A DNA stretch of 64,000 bases from Phragmitibacter flavus (lineage in GTDB: Bacteria > Verrucomicrobiota > Verrucomicrobiia > Verrucomicrobiales > Verrucomicrobiaceae). Below are positions 21,880 to 33,785 of the stretch, in pieces. The stretch lies in assembly GCF_005780165.1 (NCBI RefSeq), contig NZ_VAUV01000011.1, positions 124,001 through 188,000 on the forward strand, read 5' to 3'. The notes below the pieces were generated by a model, which did not search any database, was not told where the DNA came from, and saw nothing but the letters and a program-made list of their open reading frames with translations. The translations under genes were made by a program, and so were the position numbers. The first letter of the stretch is position 1. Each line of letters begins with the position of its first letter.

Positions 21880-24441
21880 TCAGGCGGCCGAGTGAAACTG
21901 AAGCGGCGCGACTTGTCGGCGACGACGGGTGATCAGGGCGGCGAGTCCGGCGATCAAGAGCATCGCACGGCCGGGTTCAGGGACCACGGTGGTGATGGCA
22001 ATCACGCCGTCGCTGACGAATCTTGAATCGTCCCATACCCAAGTGGGATCATAACCAGTGAGGCTTTGCAGATTGAGCAGGCGGGTGTCGATGCCGAGGG
22101 CGTTGTCCCAATCGAGGAGATCAAAGGCGTCGCCCAGCATGGGGGTGTAGCCGGAGGCGAAGACGACATTGAAGCTGCCGTCAGAAGCACCGGTGAGGTC
22201 GAGCAGACCCGTGCCGGTGGCGTCGAAGATGAGACGGTCGGCACCAGTCCCGTTGTAAGTGCCGCCGAGGGTGGCAATGTTGCCAAGGCTGTCGAGAGTG
22301 ATGTCGAGTCCGTTGGTGCCGTTGGATTTGAGTTGGAAGATGACGGCACCGGTGGCGGCGAAGGTGGCGTTGCCGGTGGCGGGGGCAAGCGTAAAGGTGC
22401 CAATGCCGTCAAGCACGCCCGGAGTGCCGGGGGAGATGGTGCCCTGAATGGAAATGCCGTTGGTGCCTGTGGGGGCGACTCTGCCGCTGCCGCCTAGGAT
22501 GGCACCCGAGGCGAGCGTGATGGCTCCGGTGCCGGTGGCGGAAGTGGAGCCGGTGTTATTGGCAAGCAGCGTCCCGGCGGTGATGCTGGTGCCGCCGCTG
22601 AAGGTGTTGTTACCGTTCAACGACCAAGTGCTGTTGTCGGTTTTGTGGATGGTCACGACGCCAGTTCCACCGCCGTTGGCCATGTTGCCCTGGATGATGT
22701 TGCCAGTGCTGGTGCCGCCAAGTTGCAGGGTGCGGGCGACAGATCCGTTGGTGTAATTGCCGACGATGATGTTCGCCGTGGTGGGGTTCAGCACGGCGGT
22801 GCCTGCGCTGCCGCCGCCGGTGAGCAGCGCGTTGATGCGCAGTTGGTAGTCGTTGGCACCGGTGACATTGAGGGTGCTGTTGCCAAGATTGAAGCTGGTG
22901 TTGCCGATGACGATGGTGTTGCCGGTGTTGGCTCCGTTATTGCCGACGTGGATGGTGGAGTTGTTGCCGCTGTTGATGATGACGTTGTTGGTGTGGGTGA
23001 TGGTGCCATTGTTGCCTGCGCCGTTGTTGAGAAGTTCGAGGATGCCGCCATTGACGGTGACGGCTCCGGTGCCGAGACCAGCGGTGTTGGTGACGCGCAG
23101 GATGCCGTTGGTGCCGGGGCCGATGATGGTGCCGCCGGAGTGACTGTTGGTGCCGGAGAGGACGAGGGTGCCTGCCTCAGTTTTAGTAATCGCACCGGCT
23201 CCGCTGACGGGGCCGGAGAGGGTTTGAACGATGCCGGTGGCCACGGCGACCGTGTTGGTGCCGGTGAGGGCGATGGGGCCGCTGAGAACGGTATTGCTTC
23301 CGATGGTGCGCATGGTGCCGCCAGACAGGGCGACGTTCATGGAATAGGTGCCGGTGGAGTTGTTTTCGAACAAAGCGATGCCAGTGCTGTTGACGGTGAG
23401 CAGGCCGCTGGTCCACGTGGAGCGGGTGAGGCTGAGCGTGCCGGCGGTAATGGTGATGTTGCCTGCGGAAATGGCACTGTCGACGATGGCAACGGTGTTG
23501 ATGCCGGTTTTTTCGGCAGTGAATCCGGCGAGGTTTAGCGTGCCGCCGCCACCACGAATGTCCCAGCGACTGGTGCCGGTGAGGGTGGCGTTGCCGGACA
23601 GGGTAACATTGCGCAAGGCGTTGCTTTGGGTGGCCCCGGTGTTGGTGATGGTGCCCGCCACAGTGATGGCTTCCCCCTGAAGATTTTGGCCGTTGATGTC
23701 GAGGGTGCCGTTGGCTTCGATAATGGTGCCCGCTGCGGTGGAGCCGAGGGCGCTGGAGCTTCCGGCTTTCAGGGTGCCGCCGGTAATGGTGGTGAGGCCG
23801 CTGTAGTTGTTGGTGCCGTTGAGTTCAAGGGTGCCGGTGCCGCTTTTGGTGATGGCGATGTTGTTGGTCACGGGGCCGGCAATGGTCCAGTTGCCAGTGC
23901 CGGCGAACGCAGCGGTTTGGGTGGTGGTGCCTCCGCTGACCAGGGTCACGTTGGAGTTGAAAAGGGCAGTGTTGACGGAGTTGTTAAGAAAGTCGGCACT
24001 GTGGATGCCGGTGCCGCTGCCGAGGACGAGGAGAAAAGCGTTTCCGCCTCCGCCGAAGCTGGTCGCACCGGCTCCGGATTCAATGGCGATTCCAGCACCA
24101 TTGGCGAGACGAAAGATCAAGTTTGCGGCCCCGGTGTTGGTGATGTTGAGGGGATCAGTCTGCCCGGAGGTGACAGTGATGTTGCCCATGCCGATGCCGG
24201 TGGAACCTTGAAAACTGCTGTCGAAGGTGGGAGAGTCGTTGGCGCCGCCGCCATCGAAGCGGATGGGATCGCCATCAGCCACAAGGCCGGATGGGGTCCA
24301 GTTGGCGGCAGTGTTGAGATCGGCGGTGGCACCGTTCCAAGTGCGGGTGGTTTGTCCAAGTGCCAGATCGGCACCTGAGATGAGGAAGAGCATGGTGACC
24401 GCGAGGAGGAAATGGTGTGTGGAGCGGACCATGAGGGGCAT
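21880..24441 (-). CDS. Large autotransporter-repeat PEP-CTERM protein
   Basis: This exported protein is about 853 residues long. After the signal peptide (hydrophobic LLAVTMLFLISGADLALG) come many beta-strand repeats. Typical units are GTLELNGTNNYSGLTTITGG and GTLVLSGTNSHSGGTIIGPG, which match the autotransporter-associated beta-strand repeat family. The C-terminus has VPEPGR, a helix and RRRR, a PEP-CTERM signal. It is Gly/Thr/Asn-rich and low in charge, as expected of a long beta-helix adhesin or matrix protein. In-frame ATGs at 24441 and 24432 fit the signal peptide best; the longer frame to 24525 is unlikely. Confidence 0.85.
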   Translation of the reverse strand: MPLMVRSTHHFLLAVTMLFLISGADLALGQTTRTWNGATADLNTAANWTPSGLVADGDPIRFDGGGANDSPTFDSSFQGSTGIGMGNITVTSGQTDPLNITNTGAANLIFRLANGAGIAIESGAGATSFGGGGNAFLLVLGSGTGIHSADFLNNSVNTALFNSNVTLVSGGTTTQTAAFAGTGNWTIAGPVTNNIAITKSGTGTLELNGTNNYSGLTTITGGTLKAGSSSALGSTAAGTIIEANGTLDINGQNLQGEAITVAGTITNTGATQSNALRNVTLSGNATLTGTSRWDIRGGGGTLNLAGFTAEKTGINTVAIVDSAISAGNITITAGTLSLTRSTWTSGLLTVNSTGIALFENNSTGTYSMNVALSGGTMRTIGSNTVLSGPIALTGTNTVAVATGIVQTLSGPVSGAGAITKTEAGTLVLSGTNSHSGGTIIGPGTNGILRVTNTAGLGTGAVTVNGGILELLNNGAGNNGTITHTNNVIINSGNNSTIHVGNNGANTGNTIVIGNTSFNLGNSTLNVTGANDYQLRINALLTGGGSAGTAVLNPTTANIIVGNYTNGSVARTLQLGGTSTGNIIQGNMANGGGTGVVTIHKTDNSTWSLNGNNTFSGGTSITAGTLLANNTGSTSATGTGAITLASGAILGGSGRVAPTGTNGISIQGTISPGTPGVLDGIGTFTLAPATGNATFAATGAVIFQLKSNGTNGLDITLDSLGNIATLGGTYNGTGADRLIFDATGTGLLDLTGASDGSFNVVFASGYTPMLGDAFDLLDWDNALGIDTRLLNLQSLTGYDPTWVWDDSRFVSDGVIAITTVVPEPGRAMLLIAGLAALITRRRRQVAPLQFHSAA

Positions 24442-24549
24442 AGGTGTTTTGTGAGCGCCCCGGAGGCGACGGGCATGACAAGACCGAATAATTTTCATTT
24501 TGACGCAATGAGGTTGGAGGGGCAAGGATTTTCCGCCTCATGCGCGGAG

Positions 24550-25851
24550 TCAAAACTCCATCCTCAACGCCTTCCCAATTCCCTCCATCCCCCGCTCCGA
24601 GACCCCCGCCTTCGCCGCAAACTCCGGCCACCTCATCACCGCCTCGCGCACCTCTTCCAAAATCCTTTCTGCACGCCCCCGCTTTAACATCGCCGCTTTC
24701 CCACACGCGCGAAAATCCTCCAGCACAAACTCGTCACGCTTACCATTCAAAGTCATCTGATGCCGCGCCGTCCACGCCCCATCCGGATTGTAACTGTAAC
24801 TCACATCAAACGCCGGCGACAACGACCACCGCCCCGCCTTGTTCATCAAAAACGCGATGTTCTTCACATGATCATCCTGGTTCCGCGCCACCACATTAAA
24901 CACCATGCGCCGGAACTGCTGCTCCACCGCCTCCATTCCCATCCCCAATTGCCGGATCAATCCCAACACCTGCTCATACCCATATACGCCCGGCTCATTA
25001 AAATCATAATGCGCCAGCCCGCACAACGACTGCATGTGCAACTTCTCCCCGCCATCCAGCCGGTCAAACCGACGCGTCATAAAATGCCTCCGGCCCCCCT
25101 CCTCCAACAACCGGCACTCACTCATCACCACCCCCGCCTCCTGCGCCATCAACGCATACGCATACTCGATCGCCCCAAACCCCTGCGGATCATCCAACTC
25201 CTTGTCCCGATTCCCCGACACCCCGTCAAACTTCAACAACCAATACCCAAACCCCTCACCCGCCACCACCTGACCCGACCTCACCTCATTTGTGCGCGGA
25301 TTCCACGCAATCACCGCCTTCGCCCGCGCCCCACCCGCCGAAGTTCCAACCCGCAAAATATCATTCAGCGCCTCCTTCCTACCCTTCCCCGCAAACGTCC
25401 CTTTCAGCCCACCCCGCTCCCTCAGCACCTCCGAAGCCAGCCGCACCAGCGCATCAATCTCAATCTTCCTCGCCTGTTTTAATCTCGGCCCCACCGTCGG
25501 CGCAAACTCCAACGCCCCCATCCCCCGCACCCCCGTGTAACACAACCGCTCCACCGCATTAAAACTCCCCGACGTCCGACCCTGCGTCGCCAGCCATGCA
25601 TCAATCAACGCATTGCCAAACTTGTCCGGCAACGCATCCGCCAGCAAACCTGGCAACCCATTAAACGTTCCCCGCGCCAACCCCGGAAACGTAAACACCC
25701 GCTCACTCAACGGCATCATCACCGGCGACACCTCCATCCCACTCCTCAAAAAATCCCGATCATACTGAAACGCCGCCACCCCGCCATCATCCCCCAACGA
25801 CACCGCTCCCACCGTCGTATCCCAAAGCCGCACCTCGGCAATCGTGCTCAT
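24550..25851 (-). CDS. hipA: HipA-family toxin kinase
   Basis: This 433-residue HipA-like Ser/Thr kinase belongs to a type II toxin-antitoxin system. The N-terminal HipA_N part contains FTFPGLARGTFNGLPGLLADALPD. The nucleotide-binding region GTSAGGARAKAVIAWN and the catalytic motif NVVARNQDDHVKNIAFL (near residues 318-334) follow, with LSPAFDVSYSYN as the metal loop. E. coli HipA inactivates GltX by phosphorylation; this longer subgroup may have another target. The start overlaps the antitoxin stop by 4 bases. Confidence 0.88.
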   Translation of the reverse strand: MSTIAEVRLWDTTVGAVSLGDDGGVAAFQYDRDFLRSGMEVSPVMMPLSERVFTFPGLARGTFNGLPGLLADALPDKFGNALIDAWLATQGRTSGSFNAVERLCYTGVRGMGALEFAPTVGPRLKQARKIEIDALVRLASEVLRERGGLKGTFAGKGRKEALNDILRVGTSAGGARAKAVIAWNPRTNEVRSGQVVAGEGFGYWLLKFDGVSGNRDKELDDPQGFGAIEYAYALMAQEAGVVMSECRLLEEGGRRHFMTRRFDRLDGGEKLHMQSLCGLAHYDFNEPGVYGYEQVLGLIRQLGMGMEAVEQQFRRMVFNVVARNQDDHVKNIAFLMNKAGRWSLSPAFDVSYSYNPDGAWTARHQMTLNGKRDEFVLEDFRACGKAAMLKRGRAERILEEVREAVMRWPEFAAKAGVSERGMEGIGKALRMEF

Positions 25852-26207
25852 CGCTCATCCCCCCACTTCCACACCCGGTATTCCGCCGCCTCCTCCGCCA
25901 ACCCACCCCCAACACCACCCCGCGTCCCCGTCGCCCGCTTCCGTCGCCGACCACGCAACTTCAACTCCTCCATTGGACTCGCCACCGGCTCCGGCACCAA
26001 CTGATTCAACCCCTCCAACAAATCCAACACCCGCAACACCCGGATCAACCCCGTCAACTGCACCGCCACCTCCCCCGCCTCCAACCTCTCCAACGTCCGC
26101 TTCGACACCCCCGCCTCCCTCGCCAACTGCGCCTGAGTCAAATTCCTCCCCAACCTCACCGCCATCAACCTCGCCCCCAGTTCCTGTAACAAGGGCTCAT
26201 CCGCCAT
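25848..26207 (-). CDS. hipB: HipB-like HTH antitoxin
   Basis: This protein is about 119 residues long. Its XRE helix-turn-helix (ARLMAVRLGRNLTQAQLARE, then GVSKRTLERLEAGEVAVQL) is near residues 12-50. A basic and Gly-rich tail (KLRGRRRKRATGTRGG) follows, and it probably contacts the kinase. It is coupled to hipA by an ATGA overlap. Upstream ATG (26222) and GTG (26225) starts are also possible; they would give a nearly leaderless message from the predicted promoter. The operator-like repeats upstream suggest autorepression. Confidence 0.85.
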   Translation of the reverse strand: MADEPLLQELGARLMAVRLGRNLTQAQLAREAGVSKRTLERLEAGEVAVQLTGLIRVLRVLDLLEGLNQLVPEPVASPMEELKLRGRRRKRATGTRGGVGGGLAEEAAEYRVWKWGDER

Positions 26208-26234
26208 CTGATTTACAATCATCACAACCCGTCT

Positions 26235-26371: not shown

Positions 26372-29300
26372 CTATTTTCCTCCTGCATGCCCCACCGCAT
26401 TCTTCAAAAGCACCTTAAACGCTTCCAAATCATGCACCCGCCCATCATGCCCCAGCGCAATGTTCACCACCCTTGCCTTCGGATGTTTTGCCAACCACAC
26501 ACTCGGATGCGGTTTGCCATATTTCTCACTGGGACTCGTCTCCGCCAGCACCTCAATCCCCACCGTTCCCTCTGGCACCCCTTCCGCATTCACATAATAC
26601 AACTCGTCCACCACCTTGAACGACTCCGGCATGCCCCTCATTACCGCATGATCCTTGTTCACCACCTTCACCGTAAACTCGCCCAGCTTGTCATGCCCGC
26701 GTGACCCTCCGCCCACAATCTGCGCATTCAATTCCGGCCATTCCGGATACGCATACCACGTCCCCGGATGCAACATCACGATCCCCTTGCCCGCCTCGGC
26801 AAAATCCATCAACGCCTTCCGATAAGCAGGCGTGTCAAAAAAGCGACGGTTCACACTGATCACCGCCACATCCGCATTCGCCAGCTCGGCCACCGCCTGA
26901 TCCCGGTCTTCCGTATACACCACCGAAAAACCACCCGCTTTCAAGGTCTCCACATCCGTTGTCCCGAAATACTTCGCAAAATCATGCGAACTCCCCCCGC
27001 CAATCACCAGCACCTTCGACTTGCCCTGCTCCCAAGCCGCCTCACCCGCCGACACCAACGGTCCATCCCCCTTGCCCCCCTCCTTCGGCCCCTCCTCGAC
27101 CTTTACCGCAGGAACCACCGCCGCCGGCTTGCCCTGATCTACCACAAACCCCGCGCTCCCCTCCAAATCCGCCGTCACCGCGAGCACCACCGGCGTCACC
27201 CCGTTGTCATAACTTTCCAAAACCACCTTCGTGATCGGACCGGGCTTTTTCACCTCCAGCGAAATTAGCCGCAACTGACCCCGCTTCACCACGCCCTCCA
27301 CCAACTTCGAACCCGGCACTTCAATCTCCCTGTTGTAATCCGCAAACGCCACGCCGTTCAGCAACTCCGTCACCTCCACCTGACCATCCGCATGGATCAC
27401 TGACACCTTCATCGCGCCACGTTGATCCTTTGTGGCTGGCCAGCCCCAACCCGCAATGCCACTCAACAAATGCAACCGCTTCGCCGCCACGTTCAAGCCC
27501 AGCTCCACCCGCTGCGGATACCCCTGCGCCACCGCCTTCTCCCAACCACCTTTTAACACCACCAAATTTAACCCATTCCCACTCTTCGCCGGATCCATTA
27601 AGAAAAACGGAATCCCCTCAACCTCGATATTCCCATACTTCACCGGAAACACGGAGTCATTCGTCGCCTCCTCCTTCGCAAACAAACCCCGCCGCGCATC
27701 CGCCGTATAAGCCTCCCTCAAATCCACCACCCGGAACTTCGCATCCCCCGCCGTCATGAACGCCAGGATATCACGCAACACCTCCGCCCCCAACGCATCT
27801 AATCCTTCCGGCATCAATGACCGGTGCGTGTTCTCACGAGATGCAATGTCCACCTTCCGAATCTCCACATCACCACCCTGATGCCGCAACGTCACGCTCG
27901 CCGCATTCTCACTCACAATAATTCCCGCATAACTCTCCCCCTTCTTCGTGCTGATGTTCCACTGCCAGAAACTCGGATCCACTTCACGATTCGGATCCAC
28001 CACATGCGTCAGCAACTCCGCCGCTCCATGTGCCCCCATCCCCGTCAACGGCGGCCCCACATCACGCAATCCTACGTCGCCGAACTTGTGACAAACCGCA
28101 CAAGCCGCCGCAAACATCACCTTGCCATTCTCCACATTTCCCGGCTTCACCACCTCCGGCAACAACCTCGCCACGATCTCCCCCTTCGCCTTCGCCCCCG
28201 GATTCAACTTGTCCATCAGCTTGCTCGCCCGCAACGCCACTTCACGATTCGGATGCGTCCGCAACCTCGCCACATTCCCCGGTCCGATTTCCAACGCCTT
28301 CACCTTTTCCTCTTCGACCGCATTCAACCATGCCATGGTCGCTTCAGGACGCTTCAAAATCTCATCAAACGCCACTGCCTTCAAAGCCGGACTCAAGGCA
28401 CCATACCCTTCTGCCAATTCCATCATTCCACCACCTTCACTTAGCGCACTCACCATGCCTCTCTGCAAATCTTCCGGGCTGTCTGGATTCAACAACACTT
28501 CCATCACCACTTTCAACAAAGACTTGTCACCCAATCCAATCATCGCCTGCGCTGCAAACAAACGATCCCCGACTCCCACCGACTCATCCTGAAGCCTGCC
28601 CGAAAGCACCACCGTCTGACCATCAATGGCCTCTTTCAGCCGGCCATCCACATCCAACCGCGCAATCAACGGCAGCGCCACCGATGCCAGCCTGGGTCGC
28701 GACAACATCGTCTCAAACGATTTCACCAGCGCCTCATCCATTTTCAGCTTCATCAAGTTCCCCTTGGCCAGATGGCGCATCACCACCATTTGCAGTCCTT
28801 CCGCATCCACCGGTCCCTGCGCCACCGCCGCGAGCAACTCCCGAACCCGGCTTTCGTCCGCCTCTTCCAGCAACAACGGCGTCAACAAATCCACCAAATG
28901 ATCCATCGCCGCCGAAGGCTCACGCTTCATCGCATCCTCAATAAACAATGGCCCGTCCGCCCTCGCCGCGATCAACACGGCCGAACGCGTCCAATCTTCC
29001 GTCGCCTCTTCATAAACCTTCAGCAACGCCGACCTCACCTCGGCAGCGCTGGTATAACTCCCAAGAAAAACCGCATCCATTGGCGACGCGTTGCCAATGT
29101 CTGCCCTGAGAAGGGCCTGCACGATTTCCCCCTGCTGCTTTTCGTCTAACTTCAAAAACTCCTGCCGGTTGAACTCATACCCATCTACCTGAGACGCTTT
29201 CCCATCGAAACTTGCATTCATCATGAACAGCGACGCCCTCTTCCTGTCATCCTCCACAGAAGACTTCGCCATCGTCACCAGAAAATCAGGCGACTCCGCC

Positions 29301-31486
29301 AATAACCGCATCGCGTTCATCTTCTGATGCGCATTGGGCGACTCCAAAAGCACTTTCATCAACCCATCCATGCCCCCCTTCTCGAGCACCGGCACCTCCA
29401 CCTTCTTCGCCTCCTTGTGCTGCACTTTCCAAATCCGGCCAAAATAATGATCCCGATCCGGCCGCACCGCCGCATTCGCCGGACCATGCAACGGCCCCCG
29501 CGTATCATTGTGAATGACCGCCTGATTGTAAAAGTCAATCACATATAGCGCCCCGTCCGGACCAATGCGCGTCTCAATCGGTCTGAACCACAAGTCACCG
29601 GAGCGCATAAACTCCGTTTCCTCACGCCCTGCCTCTTTCTCAGTGCGATAACTCACCCCATCCTTTTTCACAAACTGATGATGCACCAAGTTAATCGTCG
29701 GTTCCCCGGTAAAATAACTGTAATTCCACTTGTCTGGCCACGCCCCACCTTCATAAATCGCACAACCCGCCGCCGCCGTAAACGCTCCTACCTGGTCAAT
29801 CTGCACATAAGCCTGCTGCTCCCATTGCAACAGCGGATAACTCTTTTGCGCGGTGATCATCCCCTTCCAACCATTCGCTCCCGGCACCTTGCCCTTGGCC
29901 AGCAAATACTCTGGTAGCACCGTATGAAAAAACACCGTGCCACTCGTCGGCTGGGTCCAGAAACACTCCCCATCCCACGTCATGCACAATCCCCAAGTAT
30001 TGCCTCCCTTGCTGGAAAACGCCTCTATCGCCGTTCCATCAGGCCGAAACCTCACCACCCCTGAACTGATCCTCACCGGCTCAGTATTTGCCCCCGCTCC
30101 GAGCGCGATCACATCCCCTGCGCTGTAACCATGCGTTGCATAAATCCAGCCATCCTGCCCCCAACGCAGATTGTTCATCACCGCATGCGTATCTGCCGTC
30201 CCAAGCCCCGTGTAGAGTTTCGTGCGCTTGTCCGCCACCTCATCCCCATCCGTATCTTCCAGAAACCAGATGTCCGGTGCCGCACACGCAATGACCCCGT
30301 TCTTATACAAAACAAAACTCGTCACCAACTCCAACTTGTCTGCAAACACTTTCTTCTTGTCCATCACCCCATCCCCGTTCGTGTCCGTCAGGATGCTGAT
30401 ACAATCAATCGGATCACGCTCATATTCCCCCGGCTTCACCGAACCCGATTCCTTCCACTCCTCGGTATTCGCCTTCCTTAATCCATTCGGATACTCCGGC
30501 GTCTCCGCCACCCACATCCGCCCCTTTTCATCCCAATCAATATTCATCGCCTTGTTGATCAAAGGCTCCGCCGCCACCAGCGACAGGTCAAACTCTGGAT
30601 GCACCTCAATCTTCATCGCCGCCAGCTCAGGCCGAGTCGGACCACCTTCTGGATATCTCAACGCATCGGCCAGTTCCTCCGCTTTGCACAACTCATCCAC
30701 ATTCTCCCGTTTCCCCGCCCAGGCAATGCCGCGCAACAACATCGTGCGAATTGAATTGTGTGAAAAATTTTCATACAAGTGGCCGGGAATGGAAACAAAT
30801 GCCCGGTAGTTGTCTTTTTCATAAGTCCACATCTGCGGCTGAATATCATAAATGCTCACCCGCTTGCCACCTTCCGTTGATTTCTCCGCTTTCTTCAGCG
30901 CATCCGCATTCCGCGCTCCCGAAGCTTTGGGAGTGTAAGCCGCCGCAAGAATGTTCACCTCCGGTAGAAGGTCCATGTCATAATAAATTTCATCATCCAA
31001 ATCGAAGTTGGAACATTCTTTGGTGATGGGGTTCTCCCTATCAGTAAAGTAAAGCGACATCGGACCTTCCAGCCACTTCGTCTGCCCATGTTTCCACGAA
31101 CCTCCAACGATTCCCTTGAACCACTCGTGATCCCTCGCCACAATTCCCGCATGGATCACCACGATCCCACCACCGCGATTGACAAACTCTAGCAAATTTT
31201 TGCGCTCTTCGCCCAAGTTAATATTCCCCGCCTCTTGAGCATGCAGAATCAACACATCCGTCTTCTCCAATTGTTCACGAGTTGGAAACTCATTCGCTCC
31301 GCTCGCCTGCGCCCCGCGTTCATTCAACAAAGGCACCCAGTCTTTTAGAAACTGCGGATAATCATGCTGACCCGGACCGTGTGACTTCGGACCGGAGCGA
31401 ATATAAACCCGCAACGGATCAGCCGCATAACTCGACGAAGCCAGCAACCACGACAGACCAACAACCAAAGCAAAAAGGAATTTCAT
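26372..31486 (-). CDS. ThuA / PVC-type dehydrogenase / cytochrome c / ThuA fusion
   Basis: This is a 1704-residue exported protein. A signal peptide (FLFALVVGLSWLLASSSYA) is followed by a ThuA-like glutamine-amidotransferase fold (residues 24-270). A PVC-type beta-propeller dehydrogenase module starting VHPEFDLSLVAAEP occupies about 290-710, and HEAT-like helices about 715-1100. A c-type haem site CAVCH has cysteines at 1129 and 1132 and a histidine at 1133. A beta-rich carbohydrate-binding-like domain covers about 1250-1450, and a second ThuA domain 1489-1704 (KVLVIGGGSSHDF). It probably oxidises a sugar in the periplasm and passes electrons to its haem. It is the largest gene of the AraC-linked locus. 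Confidence 0.85.
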   Translation of the reverse strand: MKFLFALVVGLSWLLASSSYAADPLRVYIRSGPKSHGPGQHDYPQFLKDWVPLLNERGAQASGANEFPTREQLEKTDVLILHAQEAGNINLGEERKNLLEFVNRGGGIVVIHAGIVARDHEWFKGIVGGSWKHGQTKWLEGPMSLYFTDRENPITKECSNFDLDDEIYYDMDLLPEVNILAAAYTPKASGARNADALKKAEKSTEGGKRVSIYDIQPQMWTYEKDNYRAFVSIPGHLYENFSHNSIRTMLLRGIAWAGKRENVDELCKAEELADALRYPEGGPTRPELAAMKIEVHPEFDLSLVAAEPLINKAMNIDWDEKGRMWVAETPEYPNGLRKANTEEWKESGSVKPGEYERDPIDCISILTDTNGDGVMDKKKVFADKLELVTSFVLYKNGVIACAAPDIWFLEDTDGDEVADKRTKLYTGLGTADTHAVMNNLRWGQDGWIYATHGYSAGDVIALGAGANTEPVRISSGVVRFRPDGTAIEAFSSKGGNTWGLCMTWDGECFWTQPTSGTVFFHTVLPEYLLAKGKVPGANGWKGMITAQKSYPLLQWEQQAYVQIDQVGAFTAAAGCAIYEGGAWPDKWNYSYFTGEPTINLVHHQFVKKDGVSYRTEKEAGREETEFMRSGDLWFRPIETRIGPDGALYVIDFYNQAVIHNDTRGPLHGPANAAVRPDRDHYFGRIWKVQHKEAKKVEVPVLEKGGMDGLMKVLLESPNAHQKMNAMRLLAESPDFLVTMAKSSVEDDRKRASLFMMNASFDGKASQVDGYEFNRQEFLKLDEKQQGEIVQALLRADIGNASPMDAVFLGSYTSAAEVRSALLKVYEEATEDWTRSAVLIAARADGPLFIEDAMKREPSAAMDHLVDLLTPLLLEEADESRVRELLAAVAQGPVDAEGLQMVVMRHLAKGNLMKLKMDEALVKSFETMLSRPRLASVALPLIARLDVDGRLKEAIDGQTVVLSGRLQDESVGVGDRLFAAQAMIGLGDKSLLKVVMEVLLNPDSPEDLQRGMVSALSEGGGMMELAEGYGALSPALKAVAFDEILKRPEATMAWLNAVEEEKVKALEIGPGNVARLRTHPNREVALRASKLMDKLNPGAKAKGEIVARLLPEVVKPGNVENGKVMFAAACAVCHKFGDVGLRDVGPPLTGMGAHGAAELLTHVVDPNREVDPSFWQWNISTKKGESYAGIIVSENAASVTLRHQGGDVEIRKVDIASRENTHRSLMPEGLDALGAEVLRDILAFMTAGDAKFRVVDLREAYTADARRGLFAKEEATNDSVFPVKYGNIEVEGIPFFLMDPAKSGNGLNLVVLKGGWEKAVAQGYPQRVELGLNVAAKRLHLLSGIAGWGWPATKDQRGAMKVSVIHADGQVEVTELLNGVAFADYNREIEVPGSKLVEGVVKRGQLRLISLEVKKPGPITKVVLESYDNGVTPVVLAVTADLEGSAGFVVDQGKPAAVVPAVKVEEGPKEGGKGDGPLVSAGEAAWEQGKSKVLVIGGGSSHDFAKYFGTTDVETLKAGGFSVVYTEDRDQAVAELANADVAVISVNRRFFDTPAYRKALMDFAEAGKGIVMLHPGTWYAYPEWPELNAQIVGGGSRGHDKLGEFTVKVVNKDHAVMRGMPESFKVVDELYYVNAEGVPEGTVGIEVLAETSPSEKYGKPHPSVWLAKHPKARVVNIALGHDGRVHDLEAFKVLLKNAVGHAGGK

Positions 31487-31518
31487 GATAAGTGAGGAAT
31501 AAGCTGAAAATAAAGTAA

Positions 31519-31968
31519 CTAGGCCAGGGTTTTGCAGGGAGGCCGTCCATCTCGCAATGACGACCAAGTTTCTTCAGAAGACACATCAAGAGGATCAACC
31601 TCCTTCGCCAAATCGTCCGGCAACTTCGCGGGCGACAGGATGGCAAGAAACACCAGTGGTTCCTGATGCGGATTGTAAGTCGCATGCACCGTCCCGGGAG
31701 GAACATGCGCCATCTCCCCCGCACTTAAAATCCGAACTTCGTCCCCCACCCACTGCTCCGCGCGACCATACAAGACATAAATGATTTCCTCCCGATGCGG
31801 ATGCAGATGAAAAGGATGACAATGCATCGGAGCCAAATTGGCGCGCACCAACAGCAACTTCTCCGCATCCACCAGGTCAGGACTACACAACCACTCGTTG
31901 TGTGTCCATGGATTGATCTCCCGTGATGCATCTCCGACCTGAACGAAAAATCGATTCTCAGTGCTCAT
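31519..31968 (-). CDS. Cupin-domain protein
   Basis: This 149-residue single-domain cupin has motif 1 CHPFHLHPHREEIIYVLYG and motif 2 MAHVPPGTVHATYNP. The His/Glu metal ligands appear intact, so it may be a small sugar or keto-acid isomerase or oxygenase. It lies between the TIM-barrel gene (10 bases upstream) and the ThuA/PVC fusion gene (32 bases downstream). All are on the minus strand, so they form a probable three-gene operon. The start MSTENRFFVQVG is clear. Confidence 0.82.
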   Translation of the reverse strand: MSTENRFFVQVGDASREINPWTHNEWLCSPDLVDAEKLLLVRANLAPMHCHPFHLHPHREEIIYVLYGRAEQWVGDEVRILSAGEMAHVPPGTVHATYNPHQEPLVFLAILSPAKLPDDLAKEVDPLDVSSEETWSSLRDGRPPCKTLA

Positions 31969-31978
31969 GGCGATGAAC

Positions 31979-32836
31979 TTAGAGTTTCAGAGCTTTGAAC
32001 TCTTTGGTCAAGTTGGTGAGCGAATCCTCAACCCCCATCCGCTCCAGCGAACTCGCTCCTACAAAACCGACCGCATCCGTGTTTTTGATCACCCGCTCCG
32101 CATCCGACGGCGTGTTGATGGGCCCCCCATGACAAAGGAAAAAGATATCCTTCCGCACCTGGCTCGCCGCATCAATGATCTCCTGCGTGCGCTTCAACGT
32201 ATGCTCCCAACTCACCACCGCACTCTTCACCCCCACACTGCCACCTACCGTCGTGCCGACATGCGCAATGATCGCATCCGCCCCAGCCTTCGCCATCTCC
32301 ACCGCCTCCTCCGGCGTCGCCACATACACCACGCTAAAAAGATCCATCTTCCGCGCGATGGCGACCATCTCATACTCCTTCTTCACACTCATTCCCGTCT
32401 CCTCCAACACCCCGCGAAAATGCCCGTCGACAATCGTGTGTGTCGGGAAATTGTTCACCCCTGAAAACCCCATTTCCTTCACTTTGCCAAGCCAATGCCA
32501 CATGCGCCGGCGCGGGTCCGTCGCATGCACCCCGCAAATCACCGGCACCTCTTCCACCACCGGAAGCACCTCATACTCTCCAATCTCCATTGCGATCGCG
32601 TTCGCATCCCCATACGCCATCAATCCACAGGTCGAGCCATGCCCCATCATGCGAAACCGACCACTGTTATAAATGATAATCAAATCCGCCCCGCCCTTCT
32701 CAATGAATTTCGCGCTGATCCCCGTCCCCGCCCCTGCCGCAATGATCGCATTGCCCTTGTTGATCGTCGCTTGCAACCGCTCACGCACTTCCTCACGAGT
32801 GTAAGGGTTTCCTTTTCCAGTCCAGGGATTCGGCAT
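31979..32836 (-). CDS. Phosphoenolpyruvate-hydrolase-family TIM-barrel protein
   Basis: This 285-residue protein starts MPNPWTGKGNPYTREEVRE. It contains IIAAGAGTGISAKFIEKGG, VICGVHATDPRR, IIAHVGTTVGG and FFLCHGGPINTPSDA. These match the TIM-barrel family (Pfam TIM-br_sig_trns) annotated as phosphoenolpyruvate hydrolase. Enzymatic activity in the family is poorly defined; an aldolase-like or hydrolase reaction on a keto-acid is the usual guess. It is first in the operon, divergent from an AraC regulator 82 bases away. Confidence 0.8.
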   Translation of the reverse strand: MPNPWTGKGNPYTREEVRERLQATINKGNAIIAAGAGTGISAKFIEKGGADLIIIYNSGRFRMMGHGSTCGLMAYGDANAIAMEIGEYEVLPVVEEVPVICGVHATDPRRRMWHWLGKVKEMGFSGVNNFPTHTIVDGHFRGVLEETGMSVKKEYEMVAIARKMDLFSVVYVATPEEAVEMAKAGADAIIAHVGTTVGGSVGVKSAVVSWEHTLKRTQEIIDAASQVRKDIFFLCHGGPINTPSDAERVIKNTDAVGFVGASSLERMGVEDSLTNLTKEFKALKL

Positions 32837-32918
32837 AATTTCAATGGGTTAAATGAATAATCGAATGACATACTAACGACTCCTCCGCGAAAATGCTGTC
32901 TCAAACCGCATCACCACA

Positions 32919-33785
32919 ATGCACGACGACCTATCTGAAACCCACATCCTCGGTCCCGACACCTTTCAGATCGTGGTGCGCCAGAACGACACCGACCAAC
33001 GACCCTGGCTGCGCCATGCCCCCACCTGTCCCGCCCTCAAACACCATCGAATCGCTCACGCCGGTGCCTGCATCGCCAAAGACCCTTATCGCATTGTCCG
33101 CATGCAACAAAGCGGTGCGTATTTCATAGCCTGCATCGGCGGCGAGGGACGCATCCTCGTCGATGGCAAATGGAGGGTCTGCAAAGCCGGCATGGCCTGC
33201 CTTCTCCCTCCTCACATGCTCAACGCCTTCCACGCCATCCCCGGCAAATACTGGAGCTTCGCCTGGGTCCGCTACGAGGCCGCGCCCAATACCCATCCCA
33301 TACTGAGCGCCAGTTCCCCGATGCTCGCCCCCTTCCATGGCCTCGCCATCCACAACGCCATCTCCGGACTCCACTCCGAGGCAAAAGGAGCCGCCACACC
33401 CTCCGTCATTCACCAATGGCTGGAACTCGTGCAAACCTACGTCCAACAATTCACCCAACCCCTGCGGATGGACAACCGCCTCTACCATCTCTGGAACCAC
33501 GTCGAACCCCGACTCGAAAAAGACTGGACCGTCGACACCCTCGCCGCCCGCGCCCATCTCAGTGGCGAACACCTGCGCCGCCTCTGCCTCCACCAACTCG
33601 GCCGCCCCCCGCTGCGACACCTTACCTGGCTACGCATGCGACGCGCCGCCGAACTGCTCTCCACCACCGACGAAAAAATCGAAACCATCGCCCACCTCGT
33701 CGGCTACCAAAACCCCTTCGTCTTCTCCAACACCTTCAAAAAATGGATTGGCTGGCGTCCCAGCGAACACCGCAACCGAACTTGA
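32919..33785 (+). CDS. AraC-family regulator
   Basis: This 288-residue regulator has an N-terminal cupin-like ligand domain (IACIGGEGRILVDGKWRVC and CLLPPHMLNAFHAI) and a C-terminal AraC HTH (LAARAHLSGEHLRRLCLH and IAHLVGYQNPFVFSNTFKKW). Such regulators usually sense a sugar and activate a neighbouring operon. It is divergent from the TIM-barrel/cupin/ThuA operon. The intervening 82 bases must contain both promoters, though no clear binding repeat was seen there. It is the probable local regulator of that locus. Confidence 0.88.
   Translation: MHDDLSETHILGPDTFQIVVRQNDTDQRPWLRHAPTCPALKHHRIAHAGACIAKDPYRIVRMQQSGAYFIACIGGEGRILVDGKWRVCKAGMACLLPPHMLNAFHAIPGKYWSFAWVRYEAAPNTHPILSASSPMLAPFHGLAIHNAISGLHSEAKGAATPSVIHQWLELVQTYVQQFTQPLRMDNRLYHLWNHVEPRLEKDWTVDTLAARAHLSGEHLRRLCLHQLGRPPLRHLTWLRMRRAAELLSTTDEKIETIAHLVGYQNPFVFSNTFKKWIGWRPSEHRNRT

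Follow-up and report, generated by a model that had tools for sequence, protein, structure and literature searches.

A conserved Verrucomicrobial operon couples a Tm-1-like cassette to a giant extracellular sugar-oxidase-like protein

Proteins of the families UPF0261 and PF09370 occur widely, from haloarchaea to land plants, where they are fused as Tm-1, and their co-evolution was reported earlier (PMC5028733). The literature searched yielded neither a biochemical function for PF09370 or UPF0261 nor a function for DUF7133, a propeller family of the PVC-type haem-binding dehydrogenases (TIGR02604 plus TIGR02603), many of which are encoded, uncharacterised, in Verrucomicrobiota genomes. Next to these, several systems acting on oxidised sugars were described, i.e., the rhizobial thuAB trehalose operon, which acts via 3-keto derivatives (Ampomah 2013, cited in PMC10433430), the periplasmic 3'-ketolactose pathway of LacABC and DUF1080 proteins (PMC9007349), and the Agrobacterium 3-keto-glycoside operon encoding GlycDH, OGE, HYD and Gfo (PMC10628242). 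Here, a Tm-1-like cassette is found coupled to a giant extracellular sugar-oxidase-like protein, which is new.

The locus lies on contig 11 of the Phragmitibacter flavus genome (5.9 Mb, 99.9% complete), within a window that denotes the whole stretch of 64,000 nucleotides analysed. The four ORFs that the first-pass annotation had described, an AraC gene facing three co-oriented genes with small gaps, are all present: the AraC gene on the plus strand is divergent from the genes for a TIM barrel, a cupin and a fusion protein on the minus strand, with gaps of 82, 10 and 32 bp in this order. The features are:

32919..33785, plus: AraC-family regulator, 288 aa (ORF and domain scan), divergent from the operon
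32922..32946, minus: putative AraC operator TGTGGGTTTCAGATAG-N6-GTG (motif search of 57 genomes)
31979..32836, minus: PF09370 TIM barrel (TBST, C-terminal half of Tm-1), 285 aa (ORF, domain scan)
31519..31968, minus: single-domain cupin, 149 aa (ORF, domain scan)
26372..31486, minus: exported fusion, 1704 aa, with ThuA, DUF7133 propeller, helical repeats, c-type haem, beta domain and ThuA
30677..31417, minus: N-terminal ThuA, residues 24-270 (Pfam; model Z 22.5 to 4e5v)
29411..30631, minus: PVC-type propeller DUF7133/TIGR02604, residues 286-692 (Pfam/NCBIfam, alignment, model)
27752..28141, minus: c-type haem domain TIGR02603, residues 1116-1245 (NCBIfam), with CAVCH at 1129-1133
27155..27742, minus: beta-rich domain, residues 1249-1444 (predicted model, homologue alignment)
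26375..27022, minus: C-terminal ThuA, residues 1489-1704 (Pfam; model Z 23.1 to 4e5v)

The fusion gene is followed immediately downstream (24550-26225, minus strand) by a hipBA-type toxin-antitoxin pair, a HipA-like kinase gene (Pfam HipA_C, E 7e-52) with an HTH gene upstream of it. An extension of the operon to these two genes (25848-26225 and 24550-25851) was considered and rejected, as they are no recurrent neighbours. Beyond them (21880-24525, minus strand) lies the gene for an exported 881-aa protein that has passenger-associated-transport repeats and ends in a PEP-CTERM-like tail.

Compared with the Tm-1-like pair (PMC5028733), the TIM barrel is a PF09370 protein and a Tm-1-homologous UPF0261 protein is encoded in the same genome, but the two genes are unlinked here and the window adds a cupin, the ThuA/PVC/haem fusion and AraC control. 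This kinship does not imply an antiviral role; an antiphage role, which the name Tm-1 might suggest, was rejected, since none of the four window proteins gave a PADLOC match. With the PVC-type dehydrogenases the fusion shares export and the propeller, helical region and CxxCH motif in the same order, whereas a ThuA domain at each end and the tie to a Tm-1-like cassette set it apart. The rhizobial thuAB operon is alike in its ThuA domains and the proposed keto-sugar chemistry; in contrast, the locus lacks a ThuB-type dehydrogenase and an ABC transporter, and its ThuA domains are part of an exported haem protein. The proposed extracytoplasmic oxidation followed by cleavage resembles the LacABC and DUF1080 pathway, although the oxidase in the window would be a propeller protein and ThuA stands where other proteins have PF06439.

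The exported fusion starts with ATG followed by a Sec-type signal sequence. Both ThuA domains (PF06283) score 91.0 and 90.5 bits (cut-off 33.4; whole protein E 3e-50), the propeller is matched by DUF7133 (E 1e-133) and TIGR02604 (E 9e-76; 255.6 bits, cut-off 122.2), and the haem domain by TIGR02603 (99.6 bits, cut-off 68.15), so that the reading as an exported 1704-residue protein with two ThuA domains, a PVC propeller and a CAVCH haem site is borne out. When the window protein was aligned with 28 homologues, D432-T433-H434 in the propeller and the two cysteines and the histidine of CAVCH proved to be conserved. Moreover, all 28 homologues have the N-terminal ThuA, the propeller and the haem domain, and 26 also have the C-terminal ThuA, hence both; of the two without it, L156 is truncated by a contig end and L189 by a frame break. 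ThuA at both ends had been called unusual, which is right within the source genome, where the fusion is the sole such protein, but not within the orthologous family, in which the arrangement is conserved. In some relatives (L191, L076) ThuA is a separate gene. HEAT-like helices, also claimed, find no Pfam match in the window protein but one in the homologue L188 (E 2e-7). The beta-rich domain, as had been read, shows strands in the AlphaFold model, mostly at pLDDT 75-93; it is optional, shrinking to 34-74 residues in Opitutaceae-type orthologues. A likeness to AziU2/AziU3 (VIA-align Z ~15) was not trusted at an rmsd near 5.

Structure prediction, which had been put forward as a check, recovered the ThuA folds, with both domain models matching solved ThuA-like proteins, and a propeller resembling PQQ sugar dehydrogenases (Z 18-22). 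The propeller model, parts of which have low pLDDT, matches AA12 with Z 21.8 (289 aligned, rmsd 3.8) and 3a9g with Z 21.0 (275 aligned, rmsd 3.5), while unrelated propellers reach Z 17-18. For PQQ synthesis, the source genome gave a pqqE match only below the cut-off and no pqqC match, for which the control was silent as well. The same genome holds 26 DUF7133 matches; the propeller family is therefore common and not specific to the proposed pathway.

The TIM protein, which has no signal peptide, matches PF09370 with 351.9 bits (cut-off 33.8, E 2.5e-105) and PDB 2p10 with E 1.4e-78. It was shown to be about 82-92% identical across different Verrucomicrobial orders, the adjacent fusion only about 44-60% (L133-L212), which may reflect either very strong constraint or lateral transfer. 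The cupin (Cupin_2, E 5e-17) has intact metal motifs, HLHPHREEIIYVLYG at residue 54 and PPGTVH at residue 90, and is homologous to the cupins beside TIM and UPF0261 in Halopiger (39% identity, E 5e-24), Rhizobium etli and Mesorhizobium amorphae. Between TIM and fusion, three genera have a PDDEXK_3 gene of the GxxExxY type instead of the cupin (L078 6566-7021, L079, L082, L084).

UPF0261 is the most faithful partner of the TIM gene. Among 143 genomes, 90 have both, 3 and 3 only one of the two and 47 neither (agreement in 137 of 143), i.e., both occur in 90 of the 96 genomes with either, and the six discordant genomes are bins that are either incomplete or contaminated; this repeats the co-evolution of PMC5028733. 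The UPF0261 gene of the source genome (E 2.9e-63; homologous to tomato Tm-1, 3wry, E 4e-80) is unlinked from the TIM gene and escaped the first-pass annotation because it sits on contig 20 (G000:C20:44490-45014). The view that one protein contains the enzymatic core is therefore incomplete, as this most faithful partner is encoded elsewhere. The UPF0261 gene follows a glpX-type fructose-bisphosphatase (FBPase) gene at 38 bp (L113 4348-7708), an arrangement not seen in the relatives examined, and near it stands a divergent AraC paralogue 42% identical to the window AraC. On plasmids of R. etli, M. amorphae and Halopiger xanaduensis, UPF0261, TIM and a homologous cupin adjoin. The cupin beside the pair in rhizobia and a haloarchaeon makes TIM and cupin two thirds of an old cassette, to which the ThuA/PVC fusion, seen only in Verrucomicrobiota, would be an addition.

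The locus is a conserved Verrucomicrobial operon and a genuinely co-inherited module. Of 143 relatives, 93 carry the TIM gene, and 82 have both it and the fusion; outside the own family, 18 genomes hold homologues of both, 10 and 6 of only one, and 41 of neither. In a named set of 80 contigs with TIM at 82-92% identity, nearly all labelled Verrucomicrobiota, the fusion lies within 3.5 kb downstream of TIM at 37 loci, which include Opitutaceae, Verrucomicrobiales and Limisphaerales bins, loci of one lineage not being independent. A co-oriented cupin is nearby at 46 of 75 named TIM loci, cupin, fusion and UPF0261 stand together at 16 of the 48 with enough sequence, and a divergent AraC gene at 19 of the 70 with enough upstream sequence. 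A search for the gene order in other Verrucomicrobiota had been proposed, and TIM followed by the fusion recurs there; the outcome named as fatal to the idea, fusion and TIM homologues never co-occurring, is contradicted by these counts; the AraC gene, counted as part of the module, belongs to it in part of the phylum only. Clustering of ORFs around 119 TIM loci gave cupin 61, fusion 47, UPF0261 38 and AraC 37, followed by 3-keto-disaccharide-hydrolase (PF06439)/PVC proteins 11 and Dabb 10, the next family reaching 8; these counts are slightly inflated because 5 of the 119 loci were fetched via the fusion and a few contigs are present under two ids. The linkage of TIM and fusion is kept in several own-family genera (G001, G002, G004, G005, G009, G011, G012, G014, G018). 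One of these, G005, contains the module in two versions: cupin and fusion stand beside one of its two TIM copies, while Dabb, UPF0261 and a PF06439/PVC protein accompany the second (L071, L132).

The regulator is assigned to the AraC family by HTH_18 (68.7 bits, cut-off 33.6, E 6e-19) and AraC_binding (31.1 bits, cut-off 21.1). A conserved motif upstream of the TIM gene is a candidate for its operator: in the window it lies 110 bp upstream of the TIM start with two TGTG-like half-sites about 21 bp apart, and TGTGGRTTTYRGATAG-N6-GTG or a close variant occurs 81-201 bp upstream of TIM in 14 of 114 loci. In 57 whole genomes the motif has 8 matches, 6 of them upstream of a TIM gene, against 0 for a reversed-pattern control; no copy turned up at the UPF0261 locus of the source genome or at two such loci in genus g3. 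The putative operator is intergenic at some loci and overlaps the start of the AraC ORF at others including the window, so that the true AraC start may lie further in. The two remaining matches (L228, L230) lie upstream of genes for an exported sulfatase and an exported protein with a CxxCH motif, which may also belong to the regulon.

Oxidised sugars are suggested by three contexts, namely the folds of the fusion, the PF06439/PVC neighbours and the DgpA/hydratase neighbours. In several genera, PF06439, the family of a known 3-ketotrehalose hydrolase (PMC9007349) and a further likeness to the LacABC and DUF1080 pathway, is fused to PVC propellers beside the cassette. Furthermore, seven or eight Opitutaceae-type loci have neighbours that are similar to DgpA (E 1e-42) and to the 2-hydroxy-3-keto-glucal hydratase (8ro4, E 5e-34), which recalls the Agrobacterium operon; its eliminase was not identified, and the HYD-like and DgpA-like genes are absent from the window. 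A C3-specific glycoside dehydrogenase of known kind was likewise not found in the window, DgpA-like neighbours being confined to the Opitutaceae-type loci.

Tentatively, and with a likelihood somewhat short of even, the locus is read as an AraC-controlled sugar-catabolic operon in which an extracytoplasmic glycoside-oxidising fusion supplies a cytoplasmic Tm-1-like cassette with its product. We infer the substrate, the position oxidised and the cofactor: outside the cytoplasm, the secreted fusion would oxidise a ring hydroxyl of a glycoside at the propeller, in line with its PQQ-sugar-dehydrogenase fold, and electrons would pass to its own c-type haem. The two ThuA domains may then cleave or otherwise process the oxidised, probably 3-keto, sugar. 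In the cytoplasm, TIM barrel, cupin and UPF0261 would convert the imported keto-sugar product towards central metabolism, probably using ATP at UPF0261, for which ATP binding is a family annotation. The bolder version, that the Tm-1-like cassette is an ATP-using 3-keto-sugar enzyme system, in Verrucomicrobiota hard-wired to a self-sufficient extracellular double-ThuA oxidase, is rather doubtful.

Alternatively, the cassette might act on a keto acid or sugar acid, the fusion making the sugar acid and the pathway ending in glycerate or pyruvate. The first-pass annotation had proposed a module oxidising sugars or keto acids; sugar oxidation fits folds and neighbours, while the keto-acid part is unsupported, having been drawn only from the Pfam name PEP_hydrolase of a protein that is the C-terminal half of a Tm-1-like pair, a name given by similarity only. 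A sugar-acid route is nevertheless left open by neighbours in other lineages, i.e., a glycerate kinase gene, which adjoins the cassette in G136 and lies within a few kb of it in L137 and L142, and genes read as alpha-hydroxy-acid oxidases, which recur next to the cassette in family f3. The DgpA-like, keto-glucal hydratase and PF06439 neighbours are more specific and favour 3-keto sugars instead, and we consider the sugar-acid route unlikely.

That adjacency reflects shared regulation only, fusion and cassette acting on different compounds, would fit the large own-family genus g8 and some other genomes, in which fusion and TIM gene are unlinked, as well as genomes with only one of the two. However, the order TIM-cupin-fusion-UPF0261 is kept at loci without a divergent AraC gene and both genes co-occur outside the own family, which makes this explanation quite improbable. 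Less probable still is that TIM barrel and UPF0261 form a sensing or signalling pair reporting a sugar signal, with only the fusion catalytic. The family is labelled TBST, "TIM-barrel signal transduction", and tomato Tm-1 works by binding viral replication proteins (PMC5028733), but the AraC protein with its conserved putative site already covers transcriptional control, and the rhizobial cassette stands with transporter and Gfo/Idh/MocA genes, a catabolic setting.

With the conserved operon, the cassette gains a pathway that can be tested, a set of partners, an electron-transfer enzyme, and a regulator together with its candidate operator. The coupling to a sugar-dehydrogenase-like haem protein is a concrete clue that the cassette acts on oxidised sugars. 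Moreover, it suggests a possible use for PVC-type dehydrogenases in Verrucomicrobiota, which may oxidise glycosides outside the cytoplasm and pass the product to a dedicated cytoplasmic cassette.
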